The notes under the pieces are model-generated. The model was not told the origin of the DNA. It did no database searches and worked only from the letters and a program-made list of their open reading frames with translations. Made by a program: the position numbers and the translations under genes. 41,151 bases of DNA, taken from positions 1,617,711 to 1,658,861 of the forward strand of contig LS998015.1 in NCBI GenBank assembly GCA_900498245.1. The letters run 5' to 3'. The stretch is from Candidatus Zixiibacteriota bacterium. GTDB taxonomy: Bacteria; Zixibacteria; MSB-5A5; GN15; PGXB01. Shown piece by piece: positions 15,198 to 36,863 of the stretch (its first letter is position 1; every line of letters starts with the position of its first letter).

Positions 15198-15306
15198 AAT
15201 TTTCAAACCGCTTTCCCGACATTTCCTTTCTTGTTTTCACGTCATCTAAATAATTACATTACATTAGTTTGCCGGGGGCAAGATTAAATAAACGCCGGTG
15301 CCGAAA

Positions 15307-15322
15307 TGGCATCGCTCTTGCT
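15307..15322 (+). promoter_or_regulatory. sigma-54 (RpoN) promoter
   Basis: TGGCA at 15307-15311 and TTGCT at 15318-15322. The invariant GG and GC are separated by exactly ten bases, as in the TGGCAc-N5-TTGCa consensus. The predicted transcription start is near 15333, just ahead of the ribosome binding site and ATG 15342. Confidence 0.7.
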
Positions 15323-15341
15323 TTCAATTGGGAGCGGAGTC

Positions 15342-18194
15342 ATGCTAAAAATGCGTTCGGTAATTTATTTAATATTATTTCTGGCCAGCACGGTGTTGGC
15401 CGGCGATAAATATGATATTCAGGTAAACGACGACCGGACCTCCACCGATCAACTTTACCCGCGAGTCGCCGCCGGAGATAACGGCCGCTGGGCGGTCCTT
15501 TGGGTCGATAAGCGAAACGGCACCAATGACATTTACTGCCAGTTTCTTGACAGTACCGGCAATCGCCTGGGACAAAATTTTAAAGTAAATGACAATGATA
15601 ATGGCGTCCCCCAATTTGAGTCCGCGATCGACGGCAACCGTTCCGGACAATTTTCCTCGGTCTGGCAGGATTACCGCAACGGCAGCTACCCTTTTCACCC
15701 TGACATTTATTTTTCGAGAATAGATACTCTCACGAACTATAGTGATCATAATGTCACCTCCGAACAACCGGATACCTCGGTGGAATCGCCCGATATCGGC
15801 ATCTTCTTCGATGGTTCAGCGGTGGTGGTCTGGGCCGATTACCGCAACAGCAATTGGGATATCTACGGCCAGCGCATAAGTTCTGCCGGAGAACCGGTCG
15901 GAGCCAATTTCAAAATTAACGATGAGGCCGGCGCTTATCAGCAGCATTCTCCCCGGGTCGCTTCATTCCCAAACGGCGGATTTATTGTCGTCTGGTACGA
16001 CAACAGGTTCGGCAACGATGACATTTTCGGGCAGAGGTACGATGCCTCGTTCAATCGTGTCGGGACCAATCTTAGAATAAGCGATGACGCCCTTTCGTCG
16101 CGCCAGGCCTTTCCGGTTGTCGCCGGCGATAACAACAATCGCTTCTTTGTCGCCTGGGTCGATTGGCGCAACGGCACCTATCCCCAGAATCCCGACATCT
16201 ATATGCGGCGCTTCAAGGCCGACGGTTCACCCTATGCGCCGTCGATGAGGATAAATCTTAATGACGGCGGACGGGCCCAAAAAGATGTTTCCATCTGTGC
16301 CGACCTCCTGGGGGATCTTTGTATTGCCTGGGCCGATTCTGTCTCCAGCGGTCAGTGGGACGCGTTGGCGCAAATCGTGACCGAGAACGGACAGCTATCG
16401 GGCTCAAATTTTAAAATCCACCAGTTGGACGACGGCAAGCAACTTCAGCCCGATGTCGCCACCGACGGATATAAGTTATTTTTTGTCTGGGCCGATTCGC
16501 GCGCCGGAAATTTCGATATTTACGCCACCGTGAAACAATATAACAGCCCGGCTTTGATCCCATCGCCGGCACGGCTCGATTTTACTATGGAAGCAGGCGG
16601 TGCTGTCCCTTCTCCGCAAACGGTGGAACTGCTCAATGCCGGTTACGGCTCACTGGCCTGGACCGTAAATCCGGGGGTCGATTGGATAACGGTGTCACCC
16701 TCGAGCGGCGGTACACCCGATACTCTGACCGTTTCCATCACAACCGATACTCTGACATACGGCAGTTATTACGTCGGACTGCGTTTCATCCGAACCGACA
16801 ACGGCGATTCATCACTTTTAGTTCCGGTTTATCTCAACGTGACCGCTCCGTTAATCAAAATTGAACCCGATTCTCTTTTTTTCAGAGTCTTTGCGGCTCT
16901 GGGAAATCCGCTTCCGCGGGCATTTCAAATAGAAAACGCCGGCACCGGCAATTTCACCTGGACGGCGGCCGAAAACAGCGCTTGGCTGACCCTTGATAGG
17001 TCCTCGGGAGATTCTCCCGATACAGTTTTCATCCAACCCGATATTGGCGGCCTCTCCTTCGGCGATTATCGGGACCCGGTAATATGGGAATCACCCGAAG
17101 CCGCCAATTCTCCGGAGACCGCCTGGGTACATCTGGAATTGGTCGGCAATATGCCCTTTATTTCCGCTCAGCCGGAGACCCTCAGCCTGACAGGGGATGT
17201 CGGCGACAATCTTCAGACCCGCATAAAAATAATCAATCTCGGTGAAGGGGTCCTGAATTGGCAAGCCGCACCGTCGGACGCGGCGCTTTATCTCGATAAA
17301 ACATCCGGAACTGATGATGACAGCATCACCATCGGTCTGGCCACTGCCGCGATGGTTCCCGGCCTTTATAATTACTCCGTTACCGTCTGGGACAGCGCTT
17401 CCTTCAACCAATCGATAAATATGCCGGTGACCGTCCGTCTGCTTTCATCCGATACGGTTCAATTTTTAAACACCAATCTGCTTCCGAATGAAAGCGGTGT
17501 CATGCCGATATCGCTTCGATTGACCGGACCATCCAAAGGCGGGTATATCCCGTTCGCCTTTGATTCCTCTTATATTAGACTCGATTCGATCACCTTTGAC
17601 TCCGCCAACATGCCCTCCTGCATGGAATATTATACTGCATCGGCAACAACCGGTCGGGGTGAACTGGGCTTCAGAATCAATACCGCTCATTTTGACGACA
17701 GTCTCATTTCTCCCGGCGAATATCCATTTGCCCGGTTTTATTTCACCGCCAATTCGGCCGAGGCCGTGATTGCGGTCGATACCGCTTCGTCCGACAGTTC
17801 CGGTGCTTATCTTTTGGATAGTCTGGGAAATCGCTATGTCCCGGTCATCATTCCGGGTCTGCTTTCTGTTGGCAATCATACCGGAATAAATGACCCAGTC
17901 GATGATCGGCTCCCGCGCGAAATTTTTCTCAGCCAGAATTTCCCCAATCCCTTCAATTCCGAAACCGTTATCGAGATCGCTCTTCCGCGCGCTGGGAATG
18001 CCCGCCTTGAACTATATAATATTCTGGGACAGACGATATCGGTTCTGCATGACGGCATTTTACCGGCCGGCCGGTGGCGGTTCCGCTGGAACGGCTCGAT
18101 AACCGACGGCCGTCCCGCCCCGAGCGGCATCTATTTCTATCGCCTGGATATTTCCGGTACGAGCCGCACCAAAAAACTTGTCCTGCTTAAATAA
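15342..18194 (+). CDS. large secreted protein: seven-repeat propeller, three BACON-like domains, C-terminal sorting domain
   Basis: 950 residues from ATG 15342. The earlier in-frame ATG 15306 is rejected because it overlaps the sigma-54 promoter, whereas 15342 follows GGGAGCGGAG and gives a clean signal peptide (MLKMRSVIYLILFLASTVLA). Residues ~25-400 hold seven copies of a motif like W-x-D-x-R-x-G-x-x-D-I-Y, as expected for a seven-bladed beta-propeller. Three domains of about 95 residues follow, each with the W..V.P.SG..PDT pattern of BACON-like Ig folds. Then comes a cohesin-like beta segment (VQFLNTNLL...ISLRLTGP). The last ~85 residues are the FlgD-like/type-IX-like sorting domain (LSQNFPNPFNSET, GIYFYRLD, KKLVLLK). 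It is probably secreted or surface-attached; the ligand is unknown. Confidence 0.85.
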   Translation: MLKMRSVIYLILFLASTVLAGDKYDIQVNDDRTSTDQLYPRVAAGDNGRWAVLWVDKRNGTNDIYCQFLDSTGNRLGQNFKVNDNDNGVPQFESAIDGNRSGQFSSVWQDYRNGSYPFHPDIYFSRIDTLTNYSDHNVTSEQPDTSVESPDIGIFFDGSAVVVWADYRNSNWDIYGQRISSAGEPVGANFKINDEAGAYQQHSPRVASFPNGGFIVVWYDNRFGNDDIFGQRYDASFNRVGTNLRISDDALSSRQAFPVVAGDNNNRFFVAWVDWRNGTYPQNPDIYMRRFKADGSPYAPSMRINLNDGGRAQKDVSICADLLGDLCIAWADSVSSGQWDALAQIVTENGQLSGSNFKIHQLDDGKQLQPDVATDGYKLFFVWADSRAGNFDIYATVKQYNSPALIPSPARLDFTMEAGGAVPSPQTVELLNAGYGSLAWTVNPGVDWITVSPSSGGTPDTLTVSITTDTLTYGSYYVGLRFIRTDNGDSSLLVPVYLNVTAPLIKIEPDSLFFRVFAALGNPLPRAFQIENAGTGNFTWTAAENSAWLTLDRSSGDSPDTVFIQPDIGGLSFGDYRDPVIWESPEAANSPETAWVHLELVGNMPFISAQPETLSLTGDVGDNLQTRIKIINLGEGVLNWQAAPSDAALYLDKTSGTDDDSITIGLATAAMVPGLYNYSVTVWDSASFNQSINMPVTVRLLSSDTVQFLNTNLLPNESGVMPISLRLTGPSKGGYIPFAFDSSYIRLDSITFDSANMPSCMEYYTASATTGRGELGFRINTAHFDDSLISPGEYPFARFYFTANSAEAVIAVDTASSDSSGAYLLDSLGNRYVPVIIPGLLSVGNHTGINDPVDDRLPREIFLSQNFPNPFNSETVIEIALPRAGNARLELYNILGQTISVLHDGILPAGRWRFRWNGSITDGRPAPSGIYFYRLDISGTSRTKKLVLLK

Positions 18195-27830: not shown

Positions 27831-28682
27831 TTGTACGCTATAGCAAGAACCGTCCCATTTCTCGCGGGGATATCCTCCGGAGTCGCGGCCCAGAGCGGCG
27901 CCGTATCCTATTTCCGCATGGAGCGTCTGCCGATTCTGATATTTGTTCTTGTTTTCTCTATCGTCATTCTCGTTTACACCAGAATGGCCAAAAAAGGGAA
28001 GTCACTTTTCATTCGGAAAATAGCCGGGCTGGATGCGGTCGAAGAGGCCGTCGGCCGCGCCACCGAAATGGGCCGTCCGGTCTTATTTGTCCCCGGAATT
28101 CAGGAATTGGATGATATTCAAACTATTGCGGGGGTTTCCATTCTCGGCCGAGTCGCCAAAATTACGGCGCAATATGATACACCCTTAATTGTCCCCGTCA
28201 ATTATCCTCTTGTGCTCGCGGCCGGTCAGGAAATCGTGGAGCAGGCCTATACCGAGATGGGGAAGAAGGATGCTTATAACCGGGATATCGTTCGCTATGT
28301 GGCCGGAGAGCAGTTCGCCCTGGCGGCCGCCATCAACGGTATCATGATGCGGGATCGGCCTGCCACTAATATCTTCATGGGAGCCTTCTTCGCCGAATCG
28401 TTGCTTCTCACCGAGACCGGCAACGCCGCCGGCTCGATTCAGATTTCAGGCACCGCCGAGCCGGAACAACTGCCGTTTTTTATCGCCTCGTGCGACTATA
28501 CCCTCATGGGCGAGGAATTATACGCCGCCTCGAGTTATCTGAGTCACGAGCCGAAACTTCTCGGGGGCCTCAAAGGTCAGGATTTCATAAAATTAATTTT
28601 GATTATTTTAATAATTATCGGCGTTATTATGGCCACTTTCGGCGCCGGTGATTGGTTTCATTCTCTCTTTTCAACCGGCTGA
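27831..28682 (+). CDS. membrane-anchored protein, first of two close paralogues (possibly DUF6754)
   Basis: 283 residues from TTG 27831, preceded by GGAG; no in-frame ATG fits. An N-terminal hydrophobic stretch and a membrane segment (~residues 36-52, ILIFVLVFSIVILVYT) lead to a soluble domain: IAGLDAVEEAVGRATEMGRP, GVSILGRVAKITAQYDTP, ETGNAAGSIQISGT, DYTLMGEELYAASSYLSHEP. A second membrane segment lies near the end (LILIILIIIGVIMATF). About four-fifths of the core is identical by eye to the product of the next gene. The pattern matches, from memory, the uncharacterised DUF6754 family known also from Chloroflexota. Function unknown; first gene of the five-gene membrane cluster. Confidence 0.78.
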   Translation: MYAIARTVPFLAGISSGVAAQSGAVSYFRMERLPILIFVLVFSIVILVYTRMAKKGKSLFIRKIAGLDAVEEAVGRATEMGRPVLFVPGIQELDDIQTIAGVSILGRVAKITAQYDTPLIVPVNYPLVLAAGQEIVEQAYTEMGKKDAYNRDIVRYVAGEQFALAAAINGIMMRDRPATNIFMGAFFAESLLLTETGNAAGSIQISGTAEPEQLPFFIASCDYTLMGEELYAASSYLSHEPKLLGGLKGQDFIKLILIILIIIGVIMATFGAGDWFHSLFSTG

Positions 28683-28696
28683 TAGATTTTATATTC

Positions 28697-28725
28697 TTGG
28701 TATTTGGGAAACTTTTAACTATTTT
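28697..28725 (+). promoter_or_regulatory. possible internal promoter before the second paralogue
   Basis: TTGGTA at 28697-28702, 17-base spacer, TATTTT at 28720-28725, with GTG 28732 six bases further on and no Shine-Dalgarno. Another leaderless-looking arrangement. Confidence 0.35.
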
Positions 28726-28731
28726 TGATTT

Positions 28732-29607
28732 GTGAAAGCCAGACTCCGTTCGATCATATTCTCCCTTGCATCCCTCACGGCAATGGTAATCTTGTTTCTT
28801 CCGTCTTCGGCGGGTGCCGAGCCGGACGGCGGCCTATTCCGGGTGGAAAGAACCTCGGTATTGATTTTTGTCATACTTTTCTCGGCGGTAATTCTCACCT
28901 ATACCCGCTGGGCCAAGCAGGGGAAGAAGTTATTTATCCGGAAAATCGCCGGTCTTGACGCGGTCGAAGAGGCCGTCGGACGGGCCACGGAGATGGGTAA
29001 GCCGGTCCTTTTTATCCCCGGTATTTCCGAAATCGATGAAATTGAAACGATCGCCGGGGTCTCCATCCTCGGCCGGGTTGCCCGGATTACGGCCCAGTAC
29101 GATACCCCTTTGATTGTGCCGGTCAGATACCCCATGATTCTGGCCGCCGGTCAGGAAGTGGTCGAGCAGGCCTATACCGAAATGGGAAAGAAGGACTCTT
29201 ACAATCAGGATATAGTTCGCTATGTCGCCGGTGAGCAGTTCGCTTTCACTGCTACTGTCAATGGTATCATGATGCGCGATAAACCGGCCGCCAATATTTA
29301 TATGGGGGCCTTTTTTGCCGAATCGCTCCTTCTGGCCGAAACCGGCAACGCCGCCGGATCGATTCAGATTGCCGGAACCGCCCGTCCCGAGCAGTTGCCC
29401 TTCTTTGTCGCCGCCTGCGACTATACCCTGATGGGTGAGGAGTTATTTGCGGCCTCCAGTTATCTGAGTCACGAGCCGTTGCTTCTCGGCGGCCTTAAGG
29501 GCCAGGATTTTATCAAGGTCCTGTTGGTGGCGGCCGTGGCGATCGGCACTATTTTAATGACTTTCGAGGCCGGTGAAACCTTTAAAAAATTATTCACCGC
29601 GGGATAA
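28732..29607 (+). CDS. membrane-anchored protein, second paralogue (possibly DUF6754)
   Basis: 291 residues from GTG 28732. A signal-like N-terminus (to about residue 29, SSAGA) is followed by a membrane segment (~42-58), the same soluble domain as the gene before (AGLDAVEEAVGRATEMGKP, GVSILGRVARITAQYDTP, SYLSHEP) and a C-terminal membrane segment. The N- and C-terminal ends differ most from its paralogue; the middle is nearly the same, so the two arose by tandem duplication and may form a hetero-oligomer. Function unknown. Confidence 0.78.
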   Translation: MKARLRSIIFSLASLTAMVILFLPSSAGAEPDGGLFRVERTSVLIFVILFSAVILTYTRWAKQGKKLFIRKIAGLDAVEEAVGRATEMGKPVLFIPGISEIDEIETIAGVSILGRVARITAQYDTPLIVPVRYPMILAAGQEVVEQAYTEMGKKDSYNQDIVRYVAGEQFAFTATVNGIMMRDKPAANIYMGAFFAESLLLAETGNAAGSIQIAGTARPEQLPFFVAACDYTLMGEELFAASSYLSHEPLLLGGLKGQDFIKVLLVAAVAIGTILMTFEAGETFKKLFTAG

Positions 29608-29608
29608 G

Positions 29609-30316
29609 ATGCGTAATACTCTGCCCATAATAATCGCATTTCTGTCCGGCCTTATCATGGTGGTCGGCTTCTTTCTCAATCCGGCGACCACCTTTCTGGG
29701 CAACACCGAAGAGGAAGTCCTTCAGTGGGCCTCCATTGTTGGCGGTTTTACCCTGCTTTTGGGAGTCGTCTCCATAGTCCGGGTGAATGCCAAAACGGTA
29801 AGTCAGAAAAAAAAGGGGTGGCTCTTCAATCTGGCGACTCTGATTTCGATTTTTGCCATGGCCATTCCCTCCGTTGTGCCCTTCACTACGACATCGAATT
29901 TCGGGAAGGTCCTATATAAAATTTTCCCTGAAAGTTGGGCCTCGCTTTTCGGAACCGCTCCCGGTTCCATTTATGACTGGCTGTTCAATTATATGGATTC
30001 GCCGATGATGGCGACCATGTTTGCCATGCTGGCCTTCTATATCGCCTCCGCCGCCTACCGGGCTTTCCGCGCCCGTAATGCCGAGGCAACGCTACTGCTT
30101 CTGACCGCTGTATTGGTTATGCTCTGGCGCATTCCAATGGGAGAGGCCTTCCTGAAATTGTTCAGCGACAATATTCCGGTGTATATAAATACCTATATCA
30201 TGAATGGCGCCAATGCCGCCGTCCAGCGCGGCATTGTAATTGGGGCCGCTCTGGGTGCCGCCTCCATGTCGCTTCGCATCATGCTCGGTATTGAGCGTAC
30301 CTATATGGGGAAATGA
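29609..30316 (+). CDS. polytopic membrane protein of unknown function
   Basis: 235 residues from ATG 29609, one base after the previous stop. About six hydrophobic segments are visible (for example ~5-24, 40-60, 72-92, 131-150, 158-176, 209-225). The loop between segments three and four has an aromatic-rich FPESWASLFGTAPGSIYDWL. No known family recognised. Its tight spacing to both neighbours makes it part of the same membrane complex or pathway. Confidence 0.75.
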   Translation: MRNTLPIIIAFLSGLIMVVGFFLNPATTFLGNTEEEVLQWASIVGGFTLLLGVVSIVRVNAKTVSQKKKGWLFNLATLISIFAMAIPSVVPFTTTSNFGKVLYKIFPESWASLFGTAPGSIYDWLFNYMDSPMMATMFAMLAFYIASAAYRAFRARNAEATLLLLTAVLVMLWRIPMGEAFLKLFSDNIPVYINTYIMNGANAAVQRGIVIGAALGAASMSLRIMLGIERTYMGK

Positions 30317-30320
30317 CAAA

Positions 30321-31160
30321 ATGGGCTTTTGGGAAAAATTGTCTAACATGGATCGCCGCTGGATTTATCTGCTGGTGGCCATTTCCGTGATAATCCCCAT
30401 GCTGGTCGTCATTAAATTCCCCATCGAGATTTCCCCCGAGGCCCGCCAGTTGTATAATGCCGTCGAGTCCCTGCCGGACAGTTCCGTGGTTTTTCTGACT
30501 TTCGATTATTATCCGTCGACACTGGCCGAAACCGAGCCGATGTCGATCGCCGCCCTGAACCAGATGTTCCGAAAAAATATGAAAGTGATTACGATGACTA
30601 CCATTCCCCTGGGGGGCCCATCGATTGCCGAAAGGGTGACCCGTATGGTGGCCCAAAAATATAATAAAGTCTACGGTGTTGATTACGTGAATCTCGGCTA
30701 CAAGGCCAATTATGTCGCCGTCCTTAAGGGCATGGGAAGTTCCATCGAATCGATTTATCCTTCGGACAATACCGGGACTCCTCTCGCGGACCTGCCTCTT
30801 ATGAGAAATGTGAAAAATTATGCTGATATAAAATTCATTTTTGTCGTCGCCGATAACGCCATTGTCGATTACTGGATTTCGATTGTCAATGCCCAGTACA
30901 AAACCCCGGTCGGGGCCGGCATGACCGCTGTCATGGCGCCAAAAATGTATTCTTTCGTCCAGGCGGGCCAATTGACCGGACTACTGGGGGGAATGAAAGG
31001 GGCGGCCGAGTACGAGGAACTGGTCGGGGTTAAAGGAAACGCCACCCGCGGAATGGACGCCCAGTCGCTGGTTCATCTTTTGATTATCGGTTTCGTGATT
31101 CTCGGGAATATAAGTTATTTTGTCACCAAAAAGAAAACCGAACGGAGAAAGACCCCATGA
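30321..31160 (+). CDS. bitopic membrane protein with a soluble alpha/beta domain, unknown function
   Basis: 279 residues from ATG 30321, four bases after the previous stop; upstream in-frame starts fall inside that gene and are rejected. One membrane segment near the N-terminus (~14-32), a soluble part of about 200 residues with alternating strand/helix pattern (SSVVFLTFDYYPS, MKVITMTTIP, IKFIFVVADNA), and a membrane segment near the C-terminus (~251-269) followed by a lysine-rich tail. Its stop overlaps the next start by four bases. Not recognised. Confidence 0.75.
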   Translation: MGFWEKLSNMDRRWIYLLVAISVIIPMLVVIKFPIEISPEARQLYNAVESLPDSSVVFLTFDYYPSTLAETEPMSIAALNQMFRKNMKVITMTTIPLGGPSIAERVTRMVAQKYNKVYGVDYVNLGYKANYVAVLKGMGSSIESIYPSDNTGTPLADLPLMRNVKNYADIKFIFVVADNAIVDYWISIVNAQYKTPVGAGMTAVMAPKMYSFVQAGQLTGLLGGMKGAAEYEELVGVKGNATRGMDAQSLVHLLIIGFVILGNISYFVTKKKTERRKTP

Positions 31161-31795
31161 CCCTTTTCCAGCAGTTCCAGATCTGGCTCGGGGCTTTCCT
31201 GGTTCTATCGCTCTTTTCGTTTCTTTACAAGGATAATCCCTTTTACAAACTGGCCGAGCATATTTTCGCCGGGCTTTCGGCCGGTTACTATATCGGGCTC
31301 ATCTGGCAGAATGTCATCATCCAGCAGTTAATCGATCCGATGTTCGATCAGGGCCGCTGGTGGCTGGTTTTTCCCGGCATTCTGGGACTTTTGATGTTCA
31401 CCCGCTTCTTCCCCAAATGGTCCTGGGTCAGCCGGATATCATTGGCTTTTATCATGGGCAACACCGCCGGTGTCTTTCTTATTTCGCAATTGCACGGCAT
31501 AGTCCTTCCCCAGACCGTCGCCACCATGCTGTCTCTAAATCCCCGCAACGGTTTCGGAGCCGTTCTTCTCGCCCTGGTTATTTTCTGCGGGGTCATCTCG
31601 ACTTTAATTTACTTTTACTTCTCCAAGGAACACAAGGGTGTTCTCGGGGCGACTGCCAAAGTCGGCATCTGGTTCATTATGATTTCCTTCGGCGCCCACT
31701 TCGGCTATACCGTCATGGCCCGTATTTCCCTTCTTATCGGTCAGGTCCGCTTTCTTCTCTTTGATTGGGGCGGCGCCATCAAACAACTTTTCTGA
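31157..31795 (+). CDS. polytopic membrane protein of unknown function, last gene of the cluster
   Basis: 212 residues starting in an ATGA overlap. About six membrane segments, one containing FAGLSAGYYIGLIWQNVI. The first loop (YKDNPFYKLAEHIFAGLSAG) is well defined and may be a family signature, though I cannot name it. Ends 90 bases before the nucleotidyltransferase. Confidence 0.75.
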   Translation: MTLFQQFQIWLGAFLVLSLFSFLYKDNPFYKLAEHIFAGLSAGYYIGLIWQNVIIQQLIDPMFDQGRWWLVFPGILGLLMFTRFFPKWSWVSRISLAFIMGNTAGVFLISQLHGIVLPQTVATMLSLNPRNGFGAVLLALVIFCGVISTLIYFYFSKEHKGVLGATAKVGIWFIMISFGAHFGYTVMARISLLIGQVRFLLFDWGGAIKQLF

Positions 31796-35328: not shown

Positions 35329-35447
35329 TGGTTCATAAAGACCATAATGAGACGCAGACATTCATTATTACTACAATGCCCTTTTGGATTCAAAATTCTA
35401 ATAATGTTGTCTTTGGAATTATGCAAGTTTAATTGATCAAAAATAAA

Positions 35448-36863
35448 ATGGATGACGAATTATTAAAAATCTGGCCAAAAGAGAAATTTTATAATCGTGT
35501 TGAATTTATTGGCCGATTGGAGGCTGCTGGTAAATCATTGGACAAACTGCATATCATAATTCAATATTCACAATTAACTAGCAAGCCCATAAGAGGGATT
35601 ATTATAGGAAATATTGCAACGTTTGGCAATTTGATAGATTTTATGAAATTGCCAACGCGAAAATTTATACTTAAATCATCTGATGATAGTGGCAATAGAA
35701 TTTTCAGCGATGCTGTTTATATATCTCGCGCCCACTCGTCCGGATCAAGTGAAAACCTCAGGTTCGTTGCCGGTGAATTAATTCTCGATAATCTGCAAAT
35801 TCGGAATGAGATTAGAGCAAATCAAACTGGAGAGCGCCATCTAACTTTCTACATTTCTGGACCGCGACAGTTATGGCCTTCTTATGGTATATTGTCCACT
35901 TCATTTCTGGGCAATATGAATTATGACGTGCATGAGACTCTCCTCGAAGTTGCCCCGGATCTGCCATGTTCAATAGAGGCAAGGCCGGTATTTAAGTTTG
36001 AGCAAGATGTGCGCGAGGACATTAATGTAAGCGTTAAGGATGTATATGCATTACACTTGACCACAGCCGAACCTATCAATAATTTGACAAATGAACAATA
36101 TATTGATTTGGGTAAGGCGTTGGCCGATGACCTAACCCTTCTTCTTTCTTTCATTGCTCGGGAATGGATATCATGGTTCTCGTATGCATTTGAAGGCGCT
36201 GGTGAGATTTCTGAATATATAAGGGAGTCCAGAGAACGTAAGGAATCAAAAATTGATATAAATAATATAGCAGTCCCATTGCATAGAATTCGAGAATTTC
36301 TGAAAATAGGATTAGGAAATTTGCGATTACTGCGAGAAAGCGGGATTGATCTTAGCACTGCAATTGCGTATTTGATTAACGGAAACCAACTCTATTATGT
36401 TCAAGAGAGATTTAGCGCATTCTTTATGTCCTTGGAAATTATTAAAGATTACTTTGCATCGGAAAAAAATCTCTACAATGTACTACCTAATAAGGAATTC
36501 AATAAATTAAAGGTAAAATTAAAAGAATTTATAAGGCAGGAAGTGCCCAGCGAATCCGCGGCCAAGAAAATGCAAGGGAAAATTAACGAGTTGAATAGAG
36601 TTTCATTTCGCGCTCTTTTTGACGCGATGTGTGAGCATTATGATGTAATTTGGCAGGATTTATATCCTGACGGAAGCAGCCTGAGCGTTATTGAGACGCG
36701 CAATATCCTTTTCCATACAGGTAAGAAGATTGACATTGAATTGCTTTATAAAGACGAAATTAGAATACATTCCTTTGTTGAGCGGTTGATTTTGAAAATA
36801 CTTGGTTGGAACGAAAAAGTGAGCGTTCCTAACGAGGCTATTAGGATGTGGCTAAGTTCCTGA
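35448..36863 (+). CDS. HEPN-motif protein resembling the anti-phage nuclease ApeA
   Basis: 471 residues from ATG 35448; an in-frame TTG at 35433 is possible and neither has a clear ribosome binding site. The N-terminal ~220 residues are beta-rich with an EARPVFKFEQDVRED-like segment. The C-terminal half is helical and ends with ETRNILFHTG, the R-x4-H catalytic motif of HEPN ribonucleases (Arg418, His423). The layout matches what I remember of ApeA-type abortive-infection proteins (ApeA N-terminal domain plus HEPN). It is clearly AT-richer than both flanks and is probably a horizontally acquired defence gene. Family assignment is by pattern and should be tested by profile search. Confidence 0.7.
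   Translation: MDDELLKIWPKEKFYNRVEFIGRLEAAGKSLDKLHIIIQYSQLTSKPIRGIIIGNIATFGNLIDFMKLPTRKFILKSSDDSGNRIFSDAVYISRAHSSGSSENLRFVAGELILDNLQIRNEIRANQTGERHLTFYISGPRQLWPSYGILSTSFLGNMNYDVHETLLEVAPDLPCSIEARPVFKFEQDVREDINVSVKDVYALHLTTAEPINNLTNEQYIDLGKALADDLTLLLSFIAREWISWFSYAFEGAGEISEYIRESRERKESKIDINNIAVPLHRIREFLKIGLGNLRLLRESGIDLSTAIAYLINGNQLYYVQERFSAFFMSLEIIKDYFASEKNLYNVLPNKEFNKLKVKLKEFIRQEVPSESAAKKMQGKINELNRVSFRALFDAMCEHYDVIWQDLYPDGSSLSVIETRNILFHTGKKIDIELLYKDEIRIHSFVERLILKILGWNEKVSVPNEAIRMWLSS

Follow-up and report, generated by a model that had tools for sequence, protein, structure and literature searches.

The five-gene membrane cluster described here is one copy of a conserved membrane cassette, A-B-C-D. 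Zixibacteria genomes carry about five such cassettes each, diverged from one another, and the cassette is linked to another four families (E, F, G and H) through shared gene order, co-occurrence and the fusion of E with F. The cluster lies in a window of 41,151 nucleotides (the whole stretch of DNA that was analysed) from contig LS998015.1 of a Candidatus Zixiibacteriota bacterium, and consists of the following genes:

27831-28682, plus strand: A1, DUF6754 protein of 283 aa; TTG start; PF20539 E 1e-120
28732-29607, plus strand: A2, DUF6754 paralogue of 291 aa with the same architecture; GTG start; PF20539 E 2.5e-119
29609-30316, plus strand: B, polytopic protein of 235 aa, ~6 TM helices (family hydropathy)
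30321-31160, plus strand: C, protein of 279 aa, TM-Rossmann-TM
31157-31795, plus strand: D, polytopic protein of 212 aa, ~7 TM helices (family hydropathy)

Please note that the TTG of A1 is only the first possible start, and that the true start is uncertain. Membership of DUF6754 (PF20539) was judged by the Pfam curated cut-off of 27 bits together with a match across most of the profile, and both A1 (402 bits, positions 4-253 of 257) and A2 (398 bits, positions 4-254) qualify; no other family scored above cut-off for either protein in Pfam, NCBIfam or PADLOC. The same three collections gave no match above cut-off for B, C or D, nor was any Pfam match above cut-off noted among 52 homologues of C. 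From its TM segments and positive-inside pattern, A1 has an N-terminal signal-like segment, a TM helix at ~35-53, a cytoplasmic Rossmann-like core and a C-terminal TM helix at ~252-270, while C has an N-in TM helix, an extracytoplasmic Rossmann-like domain and a C-terminal TM helix. The alignment of C shows invariant D63, E71, D122, D150 and E233 (numbering of window 30318-31157). B adjoins A throughout the loci examined and carries the conserved motifs ASAAYRAFRAR and, at its C-terminus, LGIERTY; those of D are SFLYxDN and FGAxFGxTVMxRxSLLIG.

The original prediction, made from sequence alone, had given spacings of 1, 4 and -4 bases for A2-B, B-C and C-D, which held exactly (A1 and A2 are 49 bases apart). 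It had put the paralogues at about four-fifths identical in the soluble core, and the measured value of 74% over 280 codons is a little under that. The claim of shared motifs held in part: GLDAVEEAVGRATEMG is the same in A1 and A2, whereas the second motif is GEELYAASSYLSHEP in A1 and GEELFAASSYLSHEP in A2. The proposed topology, soluble domains on TM helices for A and C and two polytopic proteins, was borne out, except that C, with a TM helix at each end, is not strictly bitopic. The guess of DUF6754 was correct, as was the statement that no known system is recognisable, since no member matched a described system in Pfam, NCBIfam or PADLOC. A profile search and a search for a conserved neighbourhood had been suggested as checks; both were run, with the family results given above and a gene neighbourhood that is kept across phyla. 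The further claim that tight spacing indicates a complex or pathway has not advanced as far, and a single complex of the products remains an inference. Overlooked altogether were the other cassettes of this genome, of which the window holds one of five, and the four partner families, which are encoded at other loci.

All five genes are real and under strong purifying selection, because they are 89-92% identical to those of their nearest relative, L044, with dN/dS of 0.03-0.06 (0.056 for A2). These dN/dS values are rough, as synonymous sites are near saturation.

The window genome (3.5 Mb, single contig) holds six A genes and five C genes, arranged in five A-B-C-D cassettes:

Window 27831-31795, plus strand: cassette with duplicated A (A1-A2-B-C-D), the only A duplication in the genome
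L042:5810-16589: three tandem A-B-C-D cassettes
L043:7018-9933: fifth A-B-C-D cassette

Each of the three tandem cassettes forms its own clade across Zixibacteria families. Their A proteins carry an extra ectodomain of ~120-130 aa ahead of the first TM helix, which looks FN3-like by eye and matched no Pfam family. The A protein of the fifth cassette (L043:9067-9933) is very diverged, and its branch of 1.7-1.8 on the tree suggests that it may be a specialised class. In a tree of 67 DUF6754 cores, the A1 proteins of the window, L044 and L045 form one clade (support 100/99) and the A2 proteins of the window and L044 a separate one (support 100/98). L044 and L045 have all five genes in the order seen in the window, and dozens of other loci have that order with an unduplicated A; at the locus matching the window, only one A is present in other Zixibacteria. 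The tandem duplication, seen in the window, L044 and L045, was therefore added within one lineage and has since been retained. It is real, as originally predicted, but local, and does not define the system.

DUF6754 was found in 132 of 132 Zixibacteria genomes, including all 78 of good quality, at 4-6 copies in most genomes, and was absent from the control genomes (0/14). A single species-genome scan also recovered it from records labelled Acidobacteriota, Planctomycetota, Coatesbacteria, WOR-3, Fermentibacteria, Eisenbacteria and Zipacnadia (Armatimonadota), as well as from one 'Bacillota' assembly and a rumen bacterium, and some of these labels are doubtful. Using our own family profiles, the A-B-C-D order was kept in 121 of the 134 cassettes with readable neighbours; several of the exceptions come from one deep Zixibacteria group, in which B and C are separated by insertions.

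Some record labels appear to be mistaken: the cassettes of L045 ('Ignavibacterium') and L063 ('Calditrichaeota') are of the Zixibacteria type, and L105 carries a Zixibacteria label, falls with Coatesbacteria in the tree and shares its gene order with L106. In many Zixibacteria (L072, L084, L101, L103) a single ABCD cassette sits directly behind genes for PTS enzyme I (with HPr) and a bifunctional sugar-phosphate isomerase, identities that were read by eye, and often overlaps these genes or starts within a few bases of them. Upstream of the first ABCD cassette, L105 (1354-1773) and L114 (2298-2717) have a divergently oriented gene that is bactofilin-like, again by eye.

In distant phyla, ABCD adjoins the four additional families, often within one operon. 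E (~600-620 aa) is a member of the MutL family (PF13941, 431.9 bits) of ASKHA ATPases, with phosphate motifs DCGSTTTK and DIGGATTD that are nearly or fully invariant in the alignment; its ATPase function is inferred from these motifs only, as there are no activity data. F (~375 aa) has weak barrel-sandwich similarity to the N-termini of RnfC and NqrA, G is a small soluble protein of ~100-150 aa, and H is a two-TM protein, one member of which has sub-threshold similarity to YcxB. The order H-G-E-F-A-B-C-D is contiguous in L119 and L109, and A-B-C-D-H-G-E-F in L107 and L117. Some complete planctomycete genomes have G-E-F-A-B-C-D as a single run. Within Zixibacteria, L204 and L206 have the full set in an uninterrupted or almost uninterrupted run, and L172 has it with a few genes in between. 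The window genome has these parts scattered, with one match each of E, F and G, and with H next to G:

L126:8263-10116: E
L126:10953-12080: F
L190:7719-8246, minus strand: H
L190:7255-7716, minus strand: G

Of the 78 good Zixibacteria genomes, all have G and 77 have F, nearly always as a single full copy, whereas A is present in 4-6 copies. E (in the window genome), F and G are single-copy. The presence of A and F also coincides in Planctomycetota: A occurs in 67/214 genomes and F in 63/214, with 62 having both, 5 only A, 1 only F and 146 neither (Fisher p 1e-46, without correction for phylogeny). Two diverged paralogues join a MutL part to a following F-like (barrel-sandwich) part, one of 947 aa in Zixibacteria (L185:3965-6808, minus strand) and one of 824 aa in Planctomycetota (L187:5275-7749, minus strand). 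It is important to remember that such a fusion bears on the link between E and F only, not on ABCD. Taken with the planctomycete co-occurrence and the gene order shared across phyla, it indicates that the link of E-H to ABCD is real.

Several observations around these loci can be recorded here. The fused E-F versions have no ABCD alongside. Between E and F in several Zixibacteria lies a gene for a 266-aa protein (L126:10130-10930 in the window genome) with a signal sequence and a C-terminal TM helix, for which no Pfam family scored above cut-off. TolQ, TolR, TonB/TolA-like and TolB-like genes follow directly after this E-x-F run (L126:12324-15461), an order that recurs in other Zixibacteria families, and in planctomycete L145, L147, L148 and L150 a TolQ/ExbB-like gene and two TolR/ExbD-like genes lie upstream of G-E-F-A-B-C-D.

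The AlphaFold2 models of A2 (pLDDT 88) and C (pLDDT 94) are both confident, and the soluble domains of A and C are both Rossmann-like. The closest fold to the A core is Sir2 (Z 12.0, 3.5 A over 141 residues), followed by RCK/TrkA/GsuK domains (Z ~10); C is closest to MT0777 (Z 10.0) and the CODH epsilon subunit (Z 9.6), with generic Rossmann and sugar-binding folds at Z 8-10. Foldseek searches of A and C against the PDB returned only generic Rossmann-type matches and none at E<=0.001, and searches of PDB sequences with A, C, E and F, as single proteins and as profiles, gave nothing significant. Homology between the soluble domains of A and C was rejected, as profile comparison aligned only the C-terminal TM helix. 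By the positive-inside pattern of TM-flanking charges, the A core is cytoplasmic and the C domain outside. In an alignment of 57 sequences drawn from several phyla, 46 columns of the A core are invariant; the core is ~50% identical between phyla, and the ectodomains differ. Many copies have ~120-190 aa upstream of the core, and in L117 the ectodomain is BamB/PQQ-like; this variable ectodomain is absent from A1 and A2 of the window.

As an explanation, we propose that the cassettes encode paralogous inner-membrane complexes served by one shared, ATP-driven E/F engine, a proposal that we consider rather more open to doubt than to belief, and in which the complex, the docking, the use of ATP and the envelope role are all inferred. 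B and D would form the membrane-embedded part. The Rossmann-like domain of C would sit on the outer side of the inner membrane and the near-invariant one of A on the inner side, with many copies of A adding a variable ectodomain outside. E (ASKHA, actin/Hsp70-fold, MutL/GlmL family) and F (as a barrel-sandwich hub), together with G and H as peripheral parts, would make up a single cytosolic or peripheral engine; this engine would dock onto the conserved A domain of every cassette and spend ATP to load, remodel or drive the cassettes. Cargo would be chosen by the variable A ectodomain and C, and the likeliest role would be ATP-dependent export, assembly or organisation of envelope material.

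This proposal is made without any known cargo, substrate or phenotype for ABCD, and the contact of E/F with A is inferred in the absence of physical-contact or co-folding data. Choice of cargo by the ectodomain cannot be general, because A1 and A2 of the window have none. The A ectodomains (BamB/PQQ-like in L117) and the nearby TolQ/TolR-family genes may be hints of an envelope role; it is also possible that the TolQ/TolR neighbourhood is ordinary synteny. A bolder reading, which we would back with no more assurance than the proposal itself and which falls slightly short of probable, is an undescribed type of envelope machine in which E and F power or remodel several paralogous four-subunit ABCD complexes, throughout the phylum and in distant phyla.

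The rival that survives best, and that remains possible, is a ligand-gated channel or transporter, in which A would be an RCK/Sir2-like nucleotide or metabolite sensor gating a B-D pore, C a periplasmic solute-binding protein, and E/F regulators. In its favour are the likeness of the A core to Sir2 (Z 12.0) and RCK/TrkA/GsuK (Z ~10), that of C to generic Rossmann and sugar-binding folds (Z 8-10), and the polytopic nature of B and D. However, these are common Rossmann-type likenesses with no PDB sequence match, neither B nor D has a match to any channel or transporter family, and five ancient classes per genome together with an ASKHA ATPase would be unusual for a channel.

Less likely is a transmembrane sensor, in which C and the A ectodomain would sense the envelope and the A domain would relay to an E/F response unit. 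The pattern of a variable outside and near-constant inside fits, as do several paralogous inputs with one common partner set, but no known signalling output domain is present, two polytopic subunits per cassette exceed the needs of a receptor, and phylum-wide presence at fairly steady copy number is unlike typical receptor repertoires. The last rival, in which E would assist or reactivate a cobalamin mutase as GlmL does and its link to ABCD would be incidental synteny, rests on the place of E in PF13941 (MutL) and its 236 bits to GlmL. It can be all but dismissed, since that score is far under the 475 set for the GlmL equivalog, the glutamate mutase E chain passes its cut-off in only 5/132 phylum genomes and was not found in the window genome, E-F adjoins ABCD in several phyla, and A and F co-occur.

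The domain (DUF6754) is already named; the system apparently is not, and within the openly licensed literature it appears to be new as a system. Of the eight families, only A has so much as a DUF name, and E is distantly related to MutL. With the system in every Zixibacteria genome searched and an A core ~50% identical between phyla, it is likely to have a basic role in these bacteria, which are largely uncultured. If the ATPase link is true, this would be an ASKHA-driven membrane complex, of which no described example is known to us. The annotation 'glutamate mutase MutL' is a misleading label for E in these genomes. The planctomycete genomes with G-E-F-A-B-C-D in one run mean that the system may be open to genetics. 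Elsewhere in the window, a 962-aa protein (15306-18194) with BACON and weak FlgD-Ig/type IX sorting-domain matches is likely a secreted surface protein, and a 476-aa protein (35433-36863) has no Pfam match.

Turning to known systems, A1 and A2 are full-length members of PF20539, an entry for a domain of unknown function that does not cover B, C, D or the partners E-H. No paper naming DUF6754 was found in the openly licensed literature searched, which also held nothing relevant on MutL/PF13941, GlmL, the Zixibacteria core genome or Planctomycetes.

The GlmL/MutL accessory proteins (glutamate mutase, Or-4; PF13941, NF040745, NF040744) belong to the same Pfam family as E, which is an ASKHA ATPase. 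Compared with them, E is longer (600-620 aa against ~450) and has a C-terminal extension, usually has F nearby, and has paralogues fused to an F-like part; it falls under all cut-offs for GlmL, Or-4 and the GlmL-family models. A role as GlmL or another glutamate-mutase helper was rejected, with 235.8 bits being about half of the cut-off and GlmE (PF06368) showing the sparse distribution given above. F resembles the N-terminal barrel-sandwich domains of RnfC/NqrA below threshold (E 6e-4 to 2e-3; 5e-5 in an E-F fusion), but stays under the Pfam cut-offs and has no iron-sulphur or flavin domain family, and no match was found for the remainder of F.

The A core and C ectodomain are alike in overall fold to Sir2, RCK and CODH-epsilon Rossmann folds, without sequence similarity. 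A sirtuin was rejected for A: no Sir2 family appeared among its Pfam matches at E<=1, leaving fold likeness only, and the invariant columns have one Cys and no His, so that the catalytic histidine and the four zinc cysteines are missing. For RCK-gated transport, none of A, B and D had a match to an RCK or channel family, and the fold list (Z ~10 for A) cannot exclude RCK. An anti-phage defence system or defence island was also rejected, as none of the nine proteins (A1, A2 and B-H) had a PADLOC-DB match at E<=0.01.

The closest working analogy, and it is one of operation only, may be with the ECF transporters. No ECF family was matched, no ABC gene recurs in the cassette neighbourhoods examined, F matches no ABC family, and the energiser E would be an ASKHA rather than an ABC ATPase; the likeness lies in one shared energiser for several membrane modules.
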